DNA from: Planctomycetales bacterium
GTDB taxonomy: Bacteria > Planctomycetota > Planctomycetia > Pirellulales > JAGQOS01
DNA: 37,532 nt
NCBI GenBank assembly: GCA_020427265.1
Contig: JAGQOS010000002.1
Location: 1 to 37,532, forward strand
Reading direction: 5' to 3'
Every line of letters starts with the position of its first letter. Position 1 is the stretch's first letter. The position numbers and the translations under genes were made by a program. Shown here piece by piece: positions 30,084 to 37,532 of this stretch. The notes below the pieces were generated by a model, which ran no database searches, was not told where the DNA came from, and was given only the letters and a program-made list of their open reading frames with translations.

Positions 30084-33000
30084 TTAAGGGATAAAAAGAA
30101 ACTCATTGCTATTGAGTAGCGCACGGCATAAGGTTGGCAGGCCATGCGCACGCACGACCGGCATGGCGGCTGCAATTTCCTCTGCGCTGGCATCGCGACT
30201 CAAAGCGAGTTGATACGCGGCACAAATTTGCTTTTCCAAATCACCGGCCGCCATGCGACGCACTCGTTCGGCGAATGCCTGCGACTGATCCAGCACGAAT
30301 CGGCTATTCAACAGGTTCAGCGCCTGAATCGGCGTCGTCGACTCGCGTCGCCGTGGCGTGCTCTGCCCGGCATCGGGACAGTCGAACGCGCCAAAGACCG
30401 CGTCGCGCTCGCGGCGCACCTTATGCGCATAGATCATGCGGCGCAGGCCTTCGTCTTGAAACGACTCCAAGGGCTCGAAGCCGGTGAGTCCGCCGCGCTT
30501 GTCAAACAAATCAAAACCACGACCGTACATCGAAGTATTGAGTTGTCCGCTCACGGCGAGGATCGAGTCGCGAATGGATTCTCCCTCGAGTCGTCGGGTT
30601 GGATAGCGCCAAAGTAATCTTACGTCGGCGTCGCGCTGAGCGGCTTCGGCATTGTGGTGAGTCGATTGGCGATATACGGACGAGAGGACAATCAACCGAT
30701 GCATATGCTTGATCGACCAACCCGAACGAACCAACTCCTCCGCGAGCCAATCGAGTAATTCAGGATGCGAGGGGCTGCCGCCGTTGTTGCCAAAATCATT
30801 CGACGTCGAAACGAGCCCGATGCCGAAATGTCCTTGCCAGATGCGATTCACCATGACTCGGGCCGTGAGCGGATTGTCGGCGTTGGCGATCCATTGGGCC
30901 AAGGCCACGCGTCGTTGAGCCTCCGGCGCGCCGGAGGCCAAATCCAAATCGCCGAACAGGGCGGGTACAGCGGGCGAGACTTGCTCTTGTGGCTGCTCTG
31001 GATCGCCCCGGCGCAGTAAATGAATTTCATCGGGAGGGCGAAATCTGCCGGCAAAAACCAATAGCGATCTGGTCAACTCGGACAACTTGGCTTTGAGATC
31101 CTCTCTTTCCTGCAACAATCTCTCCGCAGCCAGGACCTCGTCGGGTAACAGCCCTACGGTTGTAAATCGCGACGGCGATTTTTGGTCGGCGTTAAATGGA
31201 GCGCGATCACTCGCATCGGCAACCGTTCTCCAAACGCCGGCGGGATCGGCAACCTCAATCGTGTAATCAGTAGTTAAGCGGTCGGCAAACTTGCCTTCGC
31301 GATCGCGTCCCCAAACGACGCGCTCGATCGTCACAGCGTTTGGAAACTCCAACGTGACCGATCCCTTGCCCGCCTGGCCCGACATCCAACTTCGAGAATT
31401 GCCATAGCGACCATCGTTTACGAATCGCAACTCGTGCCGATCGGCAACCGTTGTATCTCCTGACGAGGAAGCAATCGCACCCTCGTCGGCCAGCGCGACG
31501 TTACGGCCCGACAAATCGAACACTTCGAGTTCGTCAAGGCACGGCTCGAGCGAATTGGTTGCATGGATCGTCAATCGCAGCTTTTGGGCAAGTATTGGTT
31601 GGAAACGGTCGACGTTCTCGCGCGCATTCACCGACGGTCGCGGTGGGAGCACGGACACGAGCGTCGACATCGAGTCCAGAGCCGGACCAGCTTCAATCGA
31701 ATATGCGGTCGCTAGCCGATCCGAGTAACCACCCGTCCGATCGCGACTCCAGACGATCGAATCGATTTCGACCGCCTCGGGCAGTTCGAAGAGCAGCCAC
31801 CCTCGACCTGCCTCATCCGCCATCCAGCTTCGACCATTGCCGTACTGCCCGTCGTTTACGTGCTCCAAGCGATGACTTGCCGAAGTTCGACTACCCGAAG
31901 CTGTGACCTTCGCACCCGCTGCCGCAAGAGCCACATTTCGTGGTGGTGACTCATTCGAGAAAATCTCAAACTCGTCGACACACGGTTCGATCAATCCGAG
32001 GGTTGGGTGCAGGTTCGCATCGTGAATCGTGAAGCGGACAAACTTGGCGACGAGCGGATCGAAGTTTTCCACATTGTCGCGCGCGTCAATCGGTGCTCGG
32101 CTCGGTTGGCCGACACGAGCCAGTGGGACATATCGCGACATGTCGCGGTCAATTTCGGCAAGGCGGTCCTCGACCTGTTTCGCTTCGAGCCGTCGCATTT
32201 CCGAGTCGGGCGATAGCATCTCACGATCCGCATACTCGACACCGGCGACGAATGCTTGCATCGAATAATAGTCGCGCTGCGAGATCGGATCGAACTTGTG
32301 ATCGTGACAACGGGCGCAACCCATCGTCAGCCCGAGAAACGCGCGGCCTACGGTGTCCACCTGTTCGTCGGCAGTGTCGAGACGCAGCTTTTCCTTGTCC
32401 CGTTCCGTCAGCATTTTCGGCCCCATGGCCAGAAAGGTCGAGGCCACCAGTTGATCGTGACGTTGCTCGTCCGACTCGGCGAGCATCAGATCGCCAGCGA
32501 GTTGTTGCTGCACGAAATCATAAAAGGAACGATCGCGATTGAAGGAATCGATGACGTAGTTCCGATACCTCCATGCCTGGAAAAAGGTGTAGTTGCGATC
32601 GCCACCGTTGGAATCGGCGTAGCGGGCGACATCGAGCCAATGACGTCCCCATTTTTCGCCAAAGGCGGGACGGTTCAGCAGATCGTCGACCACGGCCGCA
32701 AGTGCCTTCGGTGAAGGGTCTTTTTCAAAGGCCGCCACCTCTTCTGGCGTCGGCGGCAGCCCGGTCAGGTCGTAGAAAAGGCGACGCAATAGCGGCCCCG
32801 GTGTGGCGTCGGGAACCGGGGAAAGGTTTCGACTCTTCAGTTCGGCAAGAATAAAGTCGTCGATCTCATCACGCCCCCAGTTGGCATCGGCGGCGTCTTC
32901 CACCTTCGGAATTGTCGGGCGAGTGTGAGGGCGAAACGCCCAATTCTGTCGAGCTTTGGCAAAATCGATCGGTTCTTTGCGAACATTCCCAGTTAGGGCT

Positions 33001-33425
33001 TCGTCACGCGGGTCCGGCGCTCCCATCGCAATCCAGCGCTCCAGAATCTCGATCTCCTCGGTCGCGAGCCGGTTCTTTGGCGGCATTTGCAGATCTTCGT
33101 CGAGGTAGCGGATGGAATGTGCAAAGAGGCTTTGATCCACATCTCCAGGGATCAGGGCTGGCCCCGAATCACCCCCAGTTTGCCAGCCCTCGCGTCGATC
33201 CAGCAGGAGACCGCCCTTCTGTTTTCCCGCTTCCTCCGAATGACACTCGTAGCATTGCGCCACCAGGATGGGCCGCACCTTGTTCTCGAAAAAGGCGATC
33301 CCGTCTTCGGCTAAACCAGAAGTGGGCAGGAGAGTGATGGCCGCCGAAACTACCAGCCACACGAGTGCCCGGCGACTGAGATCGGTGACACGAGAAGAGC
33401 AAAACTGGTCGGAGAGAAAGGCCAT
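30084..33425 (-). CDS. PSCyt1-DUF1549-discoidin repeats-DUF1553 large secreted protein
   Basis: 1113 residues. Order: signal peptide (to about 39); PSCyt1 domain with haem motif C-Y-E-C-H (58-62); DUF1549/PSCyt2 (about 185-395) with a second C-A-R-C-H (370-374); two tandem discoidin-like repeats (about 452-580 and 604-726); a coiled linker; and DUF1553/PSD1 (about 785-1110) with [15 protein letters not shown]. These are planctomycete-specific cytochrome-bearing domains of unknown reaction, thought to act on extracellular substrates. Two carbohydrate-binding-like repeats in the middle are unusual. The ATG at 33425 has no clear ribosome site. Cotranscribed with the DUF1501 gene. Confidence 0.92.
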
Positions 33426-33660: not shown

Positions 33661-33960
33661 ATGATGCCCCTGATGGGCCAAGTCAATTTTTCCTATACCG
33701 GACAACTCGCCGCCGCTGCGGGCGTCGCCGAAGTCGTGCTCGATTTTTCAGATGATGCCGTGCCGCTACGTCGGGTGCTGGATGAACTCGCCTCCCGCCA
33801 TGGTTCGAAGTGGGGCGAGCTGATCTTTGACGACGCCGGTCAGGTCCGATCCACGCTGCTGGTCATTTTTGATGGAGCCCAGGTTTCCGGGGACAAGGAA
33901 GATCTCACCCTCGACGGCGTGAAATCGGTGATGTTGATGACGCCGATCGCCGGAGGTTGA
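33661..33960 (+). CDS. MoaD/ThiS-like ubiquitin-fold sulfur carrier
   Basis: 99 residues from the ATG at 33661. The frame is open back to 33466, and an in-frame ATG at 33589 has a better AAGGG site, but the extra N-terminal residues look unrelated to the family. The core starts Q-V-N-F-S-Y-T-G-Q-L-A-A-A-A-G, runs through P-L-R-R-V-L-D-E-L-A and L-L-V-I-F-D-G, and ends in M-L-M-T-P-I-A-G-G. The terminal Gly-Gly is the site that is adenylated and thiocarboxylated in MoaD and ThiS. It is followed at once by the ThiF-like partner, its expected activating enzyme. In tungsten enzyme loci a MoaD-like carrier often accompanies aldehyde oxidoreductase; no such gene is visible upstream here. Confidence 0.8.
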   Translation: MMPLMGQVNFSYTGQLAAAAGVAEVVLDFSDDAVPLRRVLDELASRHGSKWGELIFDDAGQVRSTLLVIFDGAQVSGDKEDLTLDGVKSVMLMTPIAGG

Positions 33961-33998
33961 GGGAGCGGCAAAAACGCGCAACCACACTCCTGAACTCC

Positions 33999-34745
33999 AT
34001 GCCTCTCACCGATCTCGATCGTTCCCTCTACGAATGGCAACTCGATGTGCCCGGCTTTGGTGAGTCGGGGCAGGAAAAACTGCGATCATCGACCGCGCTG
34101 ATCTCTCGGGCGGGTGGGCTCGGAGGACCGTTGGCCTTTTCCCTCGCGGCGGCGGGCATTGGAAAACTCGTCATCGCTCATGCCGGCGACCTGCGACTGG
34201 ATGACCTGAATCGCCAGATCTTGATGCGTCACGATGATGTCGGCAAACCCCGGGCCGAATCGCTGGCGGCGACCCTGCGGGCGTTCAATCCCCAGGTCGA
34301 AGTTGAAGTCATTCCCGAAAACATCACCGAAGCCAACGCCGCCGAACTCGTGGCCAAAGCCGACATCGTTTTTGGCGCGGCGCCGCTCTTTGAGGAGCGT
34401 TTCCTCATGAATCGCGAATGCGTCCGCCAGGGCAAGCCACTGATCGACTGCGCCATGTTCAGTCTCGAAGGCCAGATCCTTCCCATCGTTCCCGGGCAGA
34501 CACCGTGCCTCGCCTGTCTCTATCCGGAGATTCCGGAGCATTGGAAACGTCGTTTTCCTGTGATCGGTGCCGTCTCCGCGTTGGCGGCGAACATTGGCGC
34601 GATGGAGGGCATCAAACTGCTGGCAGGATTCGGTGAAGTGTCCTTAAATCGAATGATCTACTTTGATACCGCTACCATGCGGTTCCAGCAGATTCAGGTG
34701 CAGCGCAATCCAGACTGCGCGGTTTGCCAACACGTCTCCTTATGA
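33999..34745 (+). CDS. Divergent ThiF/MoeB/HesA-type E1-like enzyme
   Basis: 248 residues from the ATG at 33999; the frame opens at a TTG at 33957, inside the carrier gene, but the ATG matches the MoeB N-terminus (D-L-D-R-S-L-Y-E-W-Q-L). Rossmann ATP site R-A-G-G-L-G-G (37-43), the conserved L-N-R-Q-I-L (70-75), Lys83, and two zinc-knuckle pairs, C-L-A-C (170-173) and C-A-V-C (240-243). Unlike MoeB or ThiF, the segment F-G-A-A-P-L-F (125-131) replaces the D-C-T-D-N-F that supplies the magnesium-ATP aspartates, and the catalytic cysteine after the first zinc pair is absent. It may be a specialised or non-adenylating member serving the preceding carrier. Its stop overlaps the next start by 4 bases. 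Confidence 0.85.
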   Translation: MPLTDLDRSLYEWQLDVPGFGESGQEKLRSSTALISRAGGLGGPLAFSLAAAGIGKLVIAHAGDLRLDDLNRQILMRHDDVGKPRAESLAATLRAFNPQVEVEVIPENITEANAAELVAKADIVFGAAPLFEERFLMNRECVRQGKPLIDCAMFSLEGQILPIVPGQTPCLACLYPEIPEHWKRRFPVIGAVSALAANIGAMEGIKLLAGFGEVSLNRMIYFDTATMRFQQIQVQRNPDCAVCQHVSL

Positions 34746-36265
34746 AAATTCCCAATCTCTTCCTTTCCCTTCTGGTCACTGCTGTGATCGCTTCTCTCAC
34801 TTCCTGTGGTGGTGAAAAATCTGTCGATGGTGGGAAAGCCCCGCTGGTGATGTATTGCGCGGCCGGGATGAAATCGCCGGTCACCAGAATTGCCGAGCAA
34901 TATCAAGCTGAATATGGCGTGGAAGTTCAAATCCAGTATGCAGGATCTGGCACCCTGCTTTCCAGCCTGGAAGTGGCACCGGGTGATATCTTCCTGGCGG
35001 CAGACTCCAGCTATACCGAGTTGGCGAAGGAAAAGGGACTCCTCGCCGAGACCATGCTGGTGGCCTACATGAAAGGCGGATTTGCCGTCCCCAAAGGAAA
35101 TCCGAAGGGACTGTCCCAACTCGCTGACGTGAACCGCGAGGACCTGCGCTTCGGCATCGGCAACCCGGACGCGGCGTCGGTCGGCAAGTTTACTCAACAG
35201 GTTCTCTCCGAGGCGGGTCTGTGGGAAGGCTTCAAACCCGAGGTTCAGTTTCCCACCGTCAACGAATTGGCCAATGCGCTGAAACTGGGCACCATCGATG
35301 TCGCCATTCTCTGGGATGCGGTCGCGCAACAGTATCCTGAGATCGATTTCGTGAACCTCCCCGAGTTCGATGCCAAAAGAAAAGACATCACCATCGGGGT
35401 GCTGACGAAATCAGAGCAACCGACCGAGGCCTTGAAGTTCTGCCGCTATCTCACGGCGAAAGACAAGGGCTTGCCCGTGTTTCAGGCCGATGGCTACGAG
35501 ATCTCCTCGGGCGATGTTTGGGCGGAACACCCGGAGATTCAGCTTTTCAGCGGTGCGATGTTGAGACCGGCGATCGAGGAGACCATCAAGCAATTCGAGG
35601 AACGCGAGGGCGTCACCATCACCCCAATCTTCAACGGTTGCGGCATTTTGGTGGCCCAGATGAAAGCGGGCGAGACGCCTGATGCCTATTTTTCCTGTGA
35701 CGTGAAGTTCATGGACATGGTGCAGGACCGATTCGAGGCTTCGACCGTCGTCACCGCCAACGAGATGGTCATTCTGGCGGAGAAAGGCAACCCCAAAGGC
35801 ATCGTCGGTCTGGCTGACCTGACGAAGCCGGGCATGCGTCTGGGATTGGCGCATCCGGAAAAGTCAGCGCTGGGTTTCTTGACCAAGCACCTGTTGGTGA
35901 GCGAAAACCTCTACCAGAGCATCGTGGATTCCGGAAATCTCAAGCTCGACTCACCGACCGGCGACTTCCTTGTGAATCAATTGAAGGCCGGTTCCCTCGA
36001 TGCTGTGATCGTCTATTACAGCAATGCCATGGCCGTCTCTTCGACCGGTGAGGATTTCGATCTCATTCACATCAATCGACCCAATGCCATCGCCACCCAG
36101 CCTTTTGCCGTGTCCCGGGAGTCGAAGCATGCCCATCTGATCAACCGATTCCTTGATGCCTGCGTCTCCGCCACCGGAAAGGAGCAGTTTCTGAAATACG
36201 GATTCCGCTGGGAGTTGAAAGATACAGCCTCCCCCGGTGCCAGTCCGTCGCCGCCTGCTCCGTGA
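34742..36265 (+). CDS. Tandem-ModA lipoprotein, molybdate/tungstate ABC transporter binding protein
   Basis: 507 residues. Signal peptide with lipobox L-T-S-C (Cys22), so it is anchored by lipid at the membrane surface. Two successive ModA-type periplasmic-binding domains: about 33-265 (L-V-M-Y-C-A-A-G-M-K...Y-A-G-S-G-T) and about 268-490 (I-Q-L-F-S-G-A-M-L-R...F-N-G-C-G-I), each with the A-G/S-G-A oxyanion loop and a K-G-N-P-K-G element. Ordinary ModA has one domain of about 250 residues. A Pro/Ser tail (P-G-A-S-P-S-P-P-A-P) ends the protein. The ATG overlaps the TGA of the ThiF-like gene, and its stop overlaps the GTG of modB, so coupling is likely. Confidence 0.9.
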   Translation: MKIPNLFLSLLVTAVIASLTSCGGEKSVDGGKAPLVMYCAAGMKSPVTRIAEQYQAEYGVEVQIQYAGSGTLLSSLEVAPGDIFLAADSSYTELAKEKGLLAETMLVAYMKGGFAVPKGNPKGLSQLADVNREDLRFGIGNPDAASVGKFTQQVLSEAGLWEGFKPEVQFPTVNELANALKLGTIDVAILWDAVAQQYPEIDFVNLPEFDAKRKDITIGVLTKSEQPTEALKFCRYLTAKDKGLPVFQADGYEISSGDVWAEHPEIQLFSGAMLRPAIEETIKQFEEREGVTITPIFNGCGILVAQMKAGETPDAYFSCDVKFMDMVQDRFEASTVVTANEMVILAEKGNPKGIVGLADLTKPGMRLGLAHPEKSALGFLTKHLLVSENLYQSIVDSGNLKLDSPTGDFLVNQLKAGSLDAVIVYYSNAMAVSSTGEDFDLIHINRPNAIATQPFAVSRESKHAHLINRFLDACVSATGKEQFLKYGFRWELKDTASPGASPSPPAP

Positions 36266-37128
36266 AACGCGCCTTCCACAGTGGCGGGACGGACCTGCTT
36301 TTCTTCGCCGCATTGGTGTCCCTGGGGGGACTCTATCTGCTCCTTATTCTCGCGATGCTTTTCGCGGACATCTGGTATGCGGGCACTCATATCTCGGGGC
36401 AGGAGTTCATCGATCTTCTCAAGAACGAGCACATTCGCTATTCCATCTGGCTGACCCTGATCACCTGCACCATCTCGGCGCTTCTCTCGCTGCTGGTCGC
36501 GGTGCCGGCGGGCTACATCCTGTCTCGATACCGCTTCTGGGGAAAGACGCTCATCGATGCCATTCTCGACATTCCCATCGTGCTTCCTCCGCTGGTGGTG
36601 GGACTGAGTCTCCTGATCCTGTTCAACAAAATGCCGCCCGAGTTTCTCGGCCTCGGTTCCTTGGAGGACATCATCCGCAAATTTTTCGGTCCCAACGCAG
36701 GCGTCACCTACAAGATTCCCGCCGTCATCATTGCCCAGTTTTCCGTTTCCTGTGCTTTCGCCGTTCGCACGATGAGGAATACCTTCGACCAGATCTCGCC
36801 GCGGACTGAGCAGGTGGCGCGCACTCTCGGTTGCAGTCGGGGACGCGCCTTTTTCTCCGTGGTCATCCCGGAATCATGGCGCGGCATTTCCACCGCCGGG
36901 ACCCTGGCATGGACCCGGGCGATGGGGGAGTTTGGCCCCATTCTGGTTTTCGCCAGTACTATCCGAGGACGCACCGAAGTGCTGTCGAGCACCGTGTTTC
37001 TCGAGATCAGTATCGGAAATCTGGAAGGAGCCGTGATGGTCTCCCTGCTCATGGTCACCATCGCCATCATCGTGCTGGTGGCGGTGCGGGCGTGGGACAA
37101 AGGCCAACAGCACCGATTGCTCATTTGA
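36262..37128 (+). CDS. modB: Molybdate/tungstate ABC transporter permease ModB
   Basis: 288 residues with about six membrane helices. It carries the ABC permease EAA-type cytoplasmic loop, A-R-T-L-G-C-S-R-G-R-A-F-F, followed by V-V-I-P-E-S-W-R-G-I and G-A-x-A-W/T-R-A-M-G-E-F-G-P, the sequence typical of ModB and tungstate permeases. It starts with GTG at 36262, overlapping the ModA stop by 4 bases. It would form the membrane channel fed by the double ModA. The gene is followed 9 bases later by modC. Molybdate versus tungstate preference cannot be read from this protein. Confidence 0.9.
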   Translation: MKRAFHSGGTDLLFFAALVSLGGLYLLLILAMLFADIWYAGTHISGQEFIDLLKNEHIRYSIWLTLITCTISALLSLLVAVPAGYILSRYRFWGKTLIDAILDIPIVLPPLVVGLSLLILFNKMPPEFLGLGSLEDIIRKFFGPNAGVTYKIPAVIIAQFSVSCAFAVRTMRNTFDQISPRTEQVARTLGCSRGRAFFSVVIPESWRGISTAGTLAWTRAMGEFGPILVFASTIRGRTEVLSSTVFLEISIGNLEGAVMVSLLMVTIAIIVLVAVRAWDKGQQHRLLI

Positions 37129-37137
37129 AACCGTATC

Positions 37138-37532
37138 ATGATCGAAGTCGAAAACCTCAGCATCAAAGCCGGTGACTTTCGGCTCGAAGGCATCTCGTTC
37201 GAGATTCCGGCCGGGGGTTATGGCGTGCTGATGGGACGCACCGGTTGCGGCAAGACCACCATTCTCGAGGCGATCTGTGGATTGAAAGAAGTCACCGGAG
37301 GCACCATCCGGCTCGATGGCATCGACATGACCCGCATGCCGCCGAGTCGGCGGGGCATCGGATTCGTTCCCCAGGATGGCACCCTGTTCTCGACCATGAC
37401 CGTGCGCCAGCACCTGGCCTTTGGGCCCAAGGTGCATCGATGGAAAAAAGAAAAGATCACTGAACGGGTGCAGGAATTGGCTCGCGAACTGGGCATCGAG
37501 TCTCTCCTCGGGCGCAAACCCTACGGACTCAG
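37138..37532 (+). CDS. modC: Molybdate/tungstate ABC transporter ATP-binding protein ModC (3' part beyond window)
   Basis: The first 131 residues are visible, in frame from the ATG at 37138 to the edge, without a stop. Walker A is G-R-T-G-C-G-K-T-T, the Q-loop is F-V-P-Q-D-G-T-L-F, and the spacing between them is normal. The signature, Walker B and any C-terminal Mop domain lie outside the window, so whether the protein ends in a TOBE oxyanion sensor cannot be judged. It energises import with ModA and ModB. It follows modB by 9 bases with no separate promoter seen. Confidence 0.9.
   Translation, partial: MIEVENLSIKAGDFRLEGISFEIPAGGYGVLMGRTGCGKTTILEAICGLKEVTGGTIRLDGIDMTRMPPSRRGIGFVPQDGTLFSTMTVRQHLAFGPKVHRWKKEKITERVQELARELGIESLLGRKPYGL

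Follow-up and report, generated by a model that had tools for sequence, protein, structure and literature searches.

Gene row at the right end of the window

The window analysed here is a whole contig of 37532 bases (G000:C222) from a metagenome-assembled genome (MAG), and at its right end the genes for a MoaD-like carrier, a HesA-like protein, a tandem ModA, a ModB and a ModC follow one another on the + strand in compact order. The carrier (33661..33960), a MoaD/ThiS-like beta-grasp protein of 99 aa encoded by an ORF with an ATG start, ends in ...TPIAGG; it had no Pfam match and matched SAMP1 weakly, at 29.3 bits and below the cut-off of 60. The next gene (33957..34745) encodes a HesA-like protein of the MoeB/ThiF fold with a degenerate adenylation site, as assigned from a Pfam ThiF match of 184.6 bits, an AlphaFold2 model and a tree. 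Its ORF opens with TTG at 33957, which the carrier stop codon overlaps; the in-frame ATG at 33999, which the carrier stop does not overlap, is the likelier and probable start. The stop of this gene overlaps the ATG of a tandem ModA-like substrate-binding protein (34742..36265; TIGR01256 modA, 115.5 bits against a cut-off of 62.5; two PF13531 stretches), the stop of which in turn overlaps the GTG start of a ModB-like permease (36262..37128; TIGR01581, 183.2 bits, and TIGR02141, 153 bits, both below cut-off). The ModC-like ATPase (37138..37532) is cut by the contig end and was named from locus L095 and other homologues. The transported metal may be molybdenum, tungsten or another oxyanion; the ModB matches and the ModC match of the homologue L040 fell below the equivalog cut-offs.

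Locus L095, on Verrucomicrobiia contig JAGROX010000058.1, encodes a protein 100% identical to the HesA-like protein of the window together with a complete ModC of 212 aa, and no nif gene was found beside the HesA-like gene in the window/L095 gene row. A second copy of the gene lies in the same MAG (G000:C171, locus L004) and groups with Planctomycetota rows on the tree; because of this grouping and the complete identity with a Verrucomicrobiia protein, the assignment of the window contig to G000 is probably a binning error. At L095:13846-14319, after ModC, there is a small membrane protein that we take from its sequence to be TspO-like. Upstream of the gene row, a large cytochrome-type protein (window 30084-33425, L095:6551-9469) is nearly identical at the two loci for about 370 residues from its N-terminus; beyond that point the two sequences part, which looks like an exchange of the C-terminal region. 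The genes at L004:2177-5615, presumably the end of FhcB, FhcA and FhcC of a formylmethanofuran dehydrogenase/Fhc-like set, converge on the second HesA-like copy, and a search of them found a GXGXG domain in the FhcC-like one only. The corresponding clusters (c118, c190 and c241) hold no ORF of another locus, and a formylmethanofuran/Fhc link was therefore dropped.

Active-site residues and predicted fold

The HesA-like protein was compared with E. coli MoeB residue by residue. The original prediction had read G-A-A-P-L-F where MoeB has D-C-T-D-N-F, and this reading was borne out by FGAAPLF at 34371..34391 (+), in which proline takes the place of the catalytic Asp130 and for which E. coli MoeB has LDCTDNV. 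The cysteine said to be missing after the first zinc pair is indeed missing, since CLAC (34506..34517, +) is followed directly by LYPEIPEHWKRRFPVIGAV, with no cysteine at the place of MoeB Cys187 and a family-specific WKRRFP motif (34542..34559, +) in the region that bears it in MoeB. DLNRQ (34203..34217, +), with the equivalent of MoeB R73, and the second zinc pair, CAVC (34716..34727, +), are likewise present as had been claimed. The nucleotide loop, which had been described as retained, is altered: SRAGGLGG (34104..34127, +) has arginine for the first glycine of GxGGxG. The loss of conserved aspartates also extends further than proposed, as AHAGDL (34176..34193, +) carries histidine and glycine for MoeB D62 and D64. 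Altogether the differences from MoeB are R14 to W, G38 to R, D62 to H, D64 to G, K86 to R and D130 to P, with Cys187 absent, while the protein retains R73, G40, G41, G43 and its zinc cysteines.

A protein search of 392 Planctomycetota genomes returned 53 matches at E ≤ 5e-70 in 52 genomes, the next match lying at 1.6e-56, and 46 of the 53 strong matches were aligned together with 17 hand-picked weaker ones; the counts exclude the broken match of G092, which covers residues 109-258 and contains one stop. W14, R38, H62, G64, R86 and P130 occurred in 46/46 aligned family members, all of which lack Cys187, and the remaining seven strong matches carry the same altered set. Such conservation marks a family rather than a decayed gene, and chance or gene decay was ruled out on this basis. 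The weaker matches kept R14 in 17/17, D130 and C187 in 16/17 and D62 in 15/17, the exceptions at D62 being L086 (E62) and L079 (H62). The latter protein, L079:9056-9835, is a divergent relative that keeps R14, has R38, H62, G64 and P130, lacks Cys187 and lies in another neighbourhood. The altered set was found in all 80 named loci as well, which were retrieved with patterns including the AP motif and so give no independent evidence for P130. The first CxxC zinc pair was found in 41 and the second in 40 of the 46 family members, one of which (L038) is cut by a contig end. The zinc cysteine pairs are absent from L057, L059, L062, L070 and L077, which keep the W/R/H/P set. The protein also missed the NCBIfam equivalog cut-offs (TIGR02355, 129.6 against 376.55 bits; TIGR02356, 150.7 against 275.25; PRK08762, 195 against 449).

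An AlphaFold2 model built on a 66-row alignment, in which the zinc pairs were the only invariant cysteines, reached a pLDDT of 94.3 and a pTM of 0.92. Its best solved matches were ThiF 1zud_3 (Z 35.0, rmsd 1.3) and MoeB 1jw9_B (Z 34.9, rmsd 1.5, 239 aligned), and SAE1 and APPBP1 chains were also among the fold matches. The structural comparison with MoeB that had been proposed as a check thus gave a predicted fold that is intact around an altered adenylation site: E. coli MoeB and ThiF share with the HesA-like protein the fold (Z 34-35, rmsd 1.3-1.6), the zinc pairs and R73, whereas their catalytic Asp, D62/D64, Arg finger and Cys187 are all missing from it. Judged by their MoeB equivalents (positions 38, 62, 73 and 86), R51, H75, R86 and R99 would face the former ATP site. 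The weight of each substitution can be gauged from the excerpted text of PMC13139853, according to which ThiF, MoeB and TcdA conserve the counterpart of MoeB Asp130, which is essential in Tcd2 (D188A retaining 0.65% of wild type), the Lys86 and Arg73 equivalents contact the ATP phosphates, MoeB and ThiF can do without the Arg finger, and MoeB Cys187 forms no thioester. Given these roles, P130 is the strong argument against adenylation, and the arguments from W14 and from the loss of Cys187 are weak.

Kinship with HesA and the nitrogenase link

HesA is encoded in nif clusters of cyanobacteria and, by report, of Paenibacillus and Frankia as well. Within a plasmid collection, the window protein matched cyanobacterial 'HesA/MoeB/ThiF' proteins best, at 44% identity, and nif and/or molybdenum genes surrounded the HesA gene in each of three plasmid records. 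A maximum likelihood tree of 64 hand-picked rows, including 37 family rows and three cyanobacterial HesA, placed these together with L079 on one side of a branch with support of 100/100 and a length of 1.28; among the labelled rows the family formed one group and HesA another, and L079 fell among the family rows at the end of a very long branch, its placement being unsure. With this support HesA and the HesA-like family share ancestry to the exclusion of MoeB/ThiF. The three cyanobacterial proteins resemble the family in lacking D62, D64 (glycine at 64), D130 and Cys187 and in having R for K86, but they keep R14 and the full glycine loop (G38) and have R at 62 and H at 130, where the family has W14, R38, H62 and P130. 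These differences at 14, 38, 62 and 130 imply that function may have shifted. HesA moreover sits in nif clusters, whereas the window member lies outside any and its species (G392) has no nitrogenase match.

The genetics of HesA is described in the excerpts of PMC6361004. HesA of P. polymyxa is reported there to share 43-49% identity with its cyanobacterial counterparts and 26% with MoeB of E. coli, and loss of hesA in Paenibacillus nearly abolishes nitrogenase activity. The mutant was partly suppressed by very high molybdate or by cystine, both in P. polymyxa and in E. coli carrying its nif cluster; E. coli moeB gave no improvement, K. oxytoca nifQ gave no full restoration and nitrate reductase was unaffected. 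Genetic evidence implicates HesA in molybdenum and sulfur supply to FeMo-co (PMC6361004). HesA has also been proposed, in the portion of PMC3798268 consulted, as a possible adenylator of Gly-Gly tails, and the altered residues speak against this for the sequences compared here. Among the titles and abstract beginnings listed by literature searches of open-licence PMC articles, none treated this operon or reported that HesA lacks the Asp. The excerpts of PMC1779556 describe E1-like genes in MoaD-AOR and sulfate-transporter neighbourhoods, and in that article a term search found no word beginning with 'planctomycete'.

The family might still be one of adenylyltransferases in which other residues replace Asp130, as suggested for HesA acting on Gly-Gly tails (PMC3798268). 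The kept fold, R73, zinc pairs and basic residue at K86 are compatible with such an activity, as are the absence of a Cys187 thioester and the dispensability of the Arg finger in MoeB and ThiF (PMC13139853, as excerpted) and the statement in the excerpts of PMC6361004 that Paenibacillus has no other moeB-like gene. The Asp130 equivalent that is essential in Tcd2 (PMC13139853, same excerpts) is, however, proline in 46/46 family members, D62 and D64 are lost too and the MoeB/ThiF equivalog cut-offs were missed, and we consider continued adenylation quite improbable.

One member of the family does lie beside nitrogenase genes. In the Planctomycetota genome G121 (locus L078), nifD, nifK, nifE, nifN, a NifX-like gene, a NifX-associated gene and a nif ferredoxin gene (fdxN) stand ahead of a family member that carries all of the altered residues, behind which come a MoaD-like ORF and a canonical MoeB gene; nifD, nifK, nifE and nifN all exceeded their NCBIfam cut-offs, and the NifX-like match reached 91.5 bits, below its cut-off of 112. 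To place this cluster in context, 48 Planctomycetota genomes were chosen, 32 with the family and 16 without, as well as 34 named family-positive genomes. PF00148 was present in 1/48 of the former, that is, in 1/32 of the family-positive ones, and exceeded its cut-off in 1/34 of the latter, the match in G396 falling below it; G392, the species of the window, had no PF00148 match. The one named genome above the cut-off is that of the cultured Planctomycetes bacterium CA13 (G412; family gene at locus L146), in which the 19.9 kb surrounding the nif genes contain no HesA-like ORF. Nitrogenase as a general client was rejected on these frequencies (1/48 and 1/34 genomes, many of them incomplete MAGs). 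A molybdenum cofactor (Moco) role was likewise sought by co-occurrence, and MoaE and PF00384 were found in 48/48 genomes, with and without the family, and hence do not discriminate.

Carrier, partner genes and proposed function

Neighbouring genes were counted with purpose-built models at 46 loci and at the 80 named loci, the models being seeded from the first set, with some contigs common to both (L037, L132) and many ending early. Within these bounds, ModA lay within 7 kb at 28/46 and 60/80 loci, a co-oriented MoaD-like gene no more than 1.5 kb away at 33/46 and 62/80, a c8/c13 gene within 9 kb at 20/46 and 38/80, FtsX within 9 kb at 15/46 and 29/80, and c9 at 10/46 and 29/80 (c8 and c9 being protein families described below). 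The C-terminal GG was present in all 47 aligned carriers, which included 44 of 61 named candidates. A canonical MoeB near the family gene was found at 1/46 and 2/80 loci, and a ThiS-ThiF fusion lay within 5 kb at 11 of the 80 named loci (L118, L132, L133, L136, L139, L142, which is cut by a contig end, L143, L146, L150, L163 and L171). The one fusion that was scanned, that of L150, matched PF14453 and PF00899 and reached 289.5 bits against an NCBIfam cut-off of 159; these fusions (thiF_fam2, PRK08644) have a ThiF fold like the family, but keep DFD, SNLNRQ, the Lys and an Asp where MoeB has D130. No second E1 gene was found within 5 kb at 67/80 named loci or in the window operon.

Beyond the immediate neighbourhood, a second full-length ThiF/MoeB match was present in 31 of the 32 family-positive Planctomycetota genomes (in two pieces in G342), while G105 had a partial piece of 33.6 bits only. 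The same search of 27 of the 34 named family-positive genomes gave such a match in 23, including G392 at C99; G393, G400, G401 and G414 had no full-length second match. In G402, G403, G405, G407 and G411 the sole full-length second match reads through one in-frame TGA, which may be a true interruption, an error or a sign that the match extends beyond the end of the gene.

The presence of a second E1-type match in most hosts raises the possibility that the HesA-like protein serves as the catalytically inactive half of a heterodimeric E1, helping a ThiS-ThiF fusion or MoeB to adenylate the carrier as SAE1 and APPBP1 do in eukaryotes. SAE1 and APPBP1 share the E1 fold and their chains were among the fold matches; inactive adenylation halves are known in E1s, the adenylation domain of SAE1 being described as inactive in the excerpts of PMC12355090, and another E1-type gene is adjacent at 13/80 named loci and present in most host genomes tested. 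The Arg finger, however, which would complete the site of the partner, is Trp in 46/46 members, although this finger is non-essential in MoeB and ThiF (PMC13139853, as excerpted), and the window operon and 67/80 named loci have no partner E1 within reach. We regard this arrangement as unlikely.

The c8 family is represented by L097:5223-6428 and by G392:C402, a contig other than that of the HesA-like gene, which also encodes FtsX, an ABC ATPase and c9. Its members have an N-terminal hydrophobic helix, conserved ACxxPVFRYALERW and CSC motifs and a C-terminal helix that is membrane-spanning by appearance. Three members scanned had no Pfam match, and fold comparison gave weak thioredoxin-like matches (best Z 8.5; best Foldseek E 3.8e-4, TM 0.18), too weak for membership of the thioredoxin family to be claimed. 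In a hand-picked sample of 48 Planctomycetota genomes (every sampled genome of families f5, with 27, and f2, with eight, plus 13 others that carry the HesA-like protein), c8 was found at E ≤ 5.5e-51 in 27/32 genomes with the HesA-like protein and in 0/16 without it, and inside f5 in 17/17 and 0/10, respectively. Five of the 32 family-positive genomes thus had no strong match, and weak matches were seen in G342 (8.6e-5) and G030 (5.3e-6), which are family-positive, and in G353 (9.2e-5), which is family-negative. At E < 1e-37, c8 was also present in 30/34 named family-positive genomes, 15 of which had supplied rows to the model, and in 15/19 of those that gave none; c8 tracks the HesA-like protein across phyla. 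Because c8 lies far from the HesA-like gene in several genomes (e.g., G024, G105 and G307), the co-occurrence is not mere linkage, and since the genomes are related we give no p-value for it. The c9 family (L128:5159-7225, L156:2-2707, L121:2410-5148 and others) comprises large proteins with PQQ-type propeller stretches and a conserved RPxCW...PExGGGCSCG motif, the cysteines of which are a possible metal or cofactor site. With RPxCW...GCxC and E ≤ 1e-30 as thresholds, c9 was found in at least 13 of 32 family-positive and 0 of 16 negative genomes, among at most 56 candidates scored per genome, which makes its absences soft.

Two further explanations draw on these partners. The HesA-like protein could handle sulfur only, binding the thiocarboxylated carrier and steering its sulfur to an acceptor with the metal untouched; cystine too suppresses the hesA mutant (PMC6361004, as excerpted), the GG of the carrier is kept in 47/47 and c8 looks thioredoxin-like, if weakly so. 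High molybdate, however, suppresses the mutant as well (same excerpts), the adjoining transporter is of the molybdate type, and the zinc pairs, the sole invariant cysteines of the 66-row alignment, are absent from 5/46 members, which makes a pure sulfur role distinctly unlikely in our judgement. Alternatively, the protein could regulate or scaffold an envelope export system (c8, FtsX, ABC ATPase and c9) and have an incidental link to molybdenum, in keeping with the tracking of the family by c8 even where the two are unlinked and with the FtsX genes near part of the loci. Transporter and carrier genes are, however, nearby more often than envelope genes and HesA genetics indicates FeMo-co supply (PMC6361004, as excerpted), and we hold this explanation to be highly improbable.

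The loss of adenylation residues, the kinship with HesA and the presence of molybdate-type uptake and carrier genes suggest that the family handles molybdenum rather than adenylates. Our favoured reading, held tentatively and at somewhat less than even confidence, is that the HesA-like protein is a molybdenum or molybdenum-sulfur delivery factor of the HesA clade and not an adenylyltransferase. A separate E1, either a ThiS-ThiF fusion or a MoeB-rhodanese protein, would load the carrier with sulfur, and the carrier would dock on the HesA-like protein, whose former ATP pocket, with R51, H75, R86 and R99, would hold molybdate or tungstate from the transporter; a Mo-S unit or the bare metal would then be handed to a client. 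In nif clusters this client would be FeMo-co, and in other bacteria it may be situated in the envelope, with the c8/FtsX module serving it. A factor that joins molybdate and carrier-bound sulfur would explain both suppressors of the hesA mutant and fits the gene set. The lack of another moeB-like gene in Paenibacillus, as stated in the excerpts of PMC6361004, implies that a separate E1 would not be universal. The original prediction that the protein binds the carrier without adenylating it, or acts as a metal-insertion chaperone, fits the loss of the aspartates, the HesA sister clade, the operon and the other E1 genes; on these grounds it is supported in part, and binding without adenylation or metal insertion would be the putative chemistry.

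We also entertain, as a rather unlikely extension, a HesA-type Mo/W-sulfur assembly system that operates apart from nitrogen fixation in phyla such as Planctomycetota and Verrucomicrobiota, and in which a tandem-ModA importer, a Gly-Gly carrier, a separate true E1 and an ATP pocket turned into an oxyanion-metal site would feed an undescribed cofactor of an envelope enzyme through c8, an FtsX-type ABC transporter and, perhaps, the secreted c9.

HesA itself was already known, as was its requirement for full nitrogenase activity in Paenibacillus and others, for which MoeB-like adenylation had been proposed; what is new is a branch of the HesA kind that occurs mostly in genomes in which no nitrogenase was found. 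All HesA-clade members compared here lack the catalytic Asp, nitrogenase was found in almost none of the host genomes tested, and molybdate-type neighbours are common, so that the function of HesA becomes testable outside nitrogen fixation. The family is also a pointer to a metal pathway of Planctomycetota and Verrucomicrobiota that has gone unstudied.
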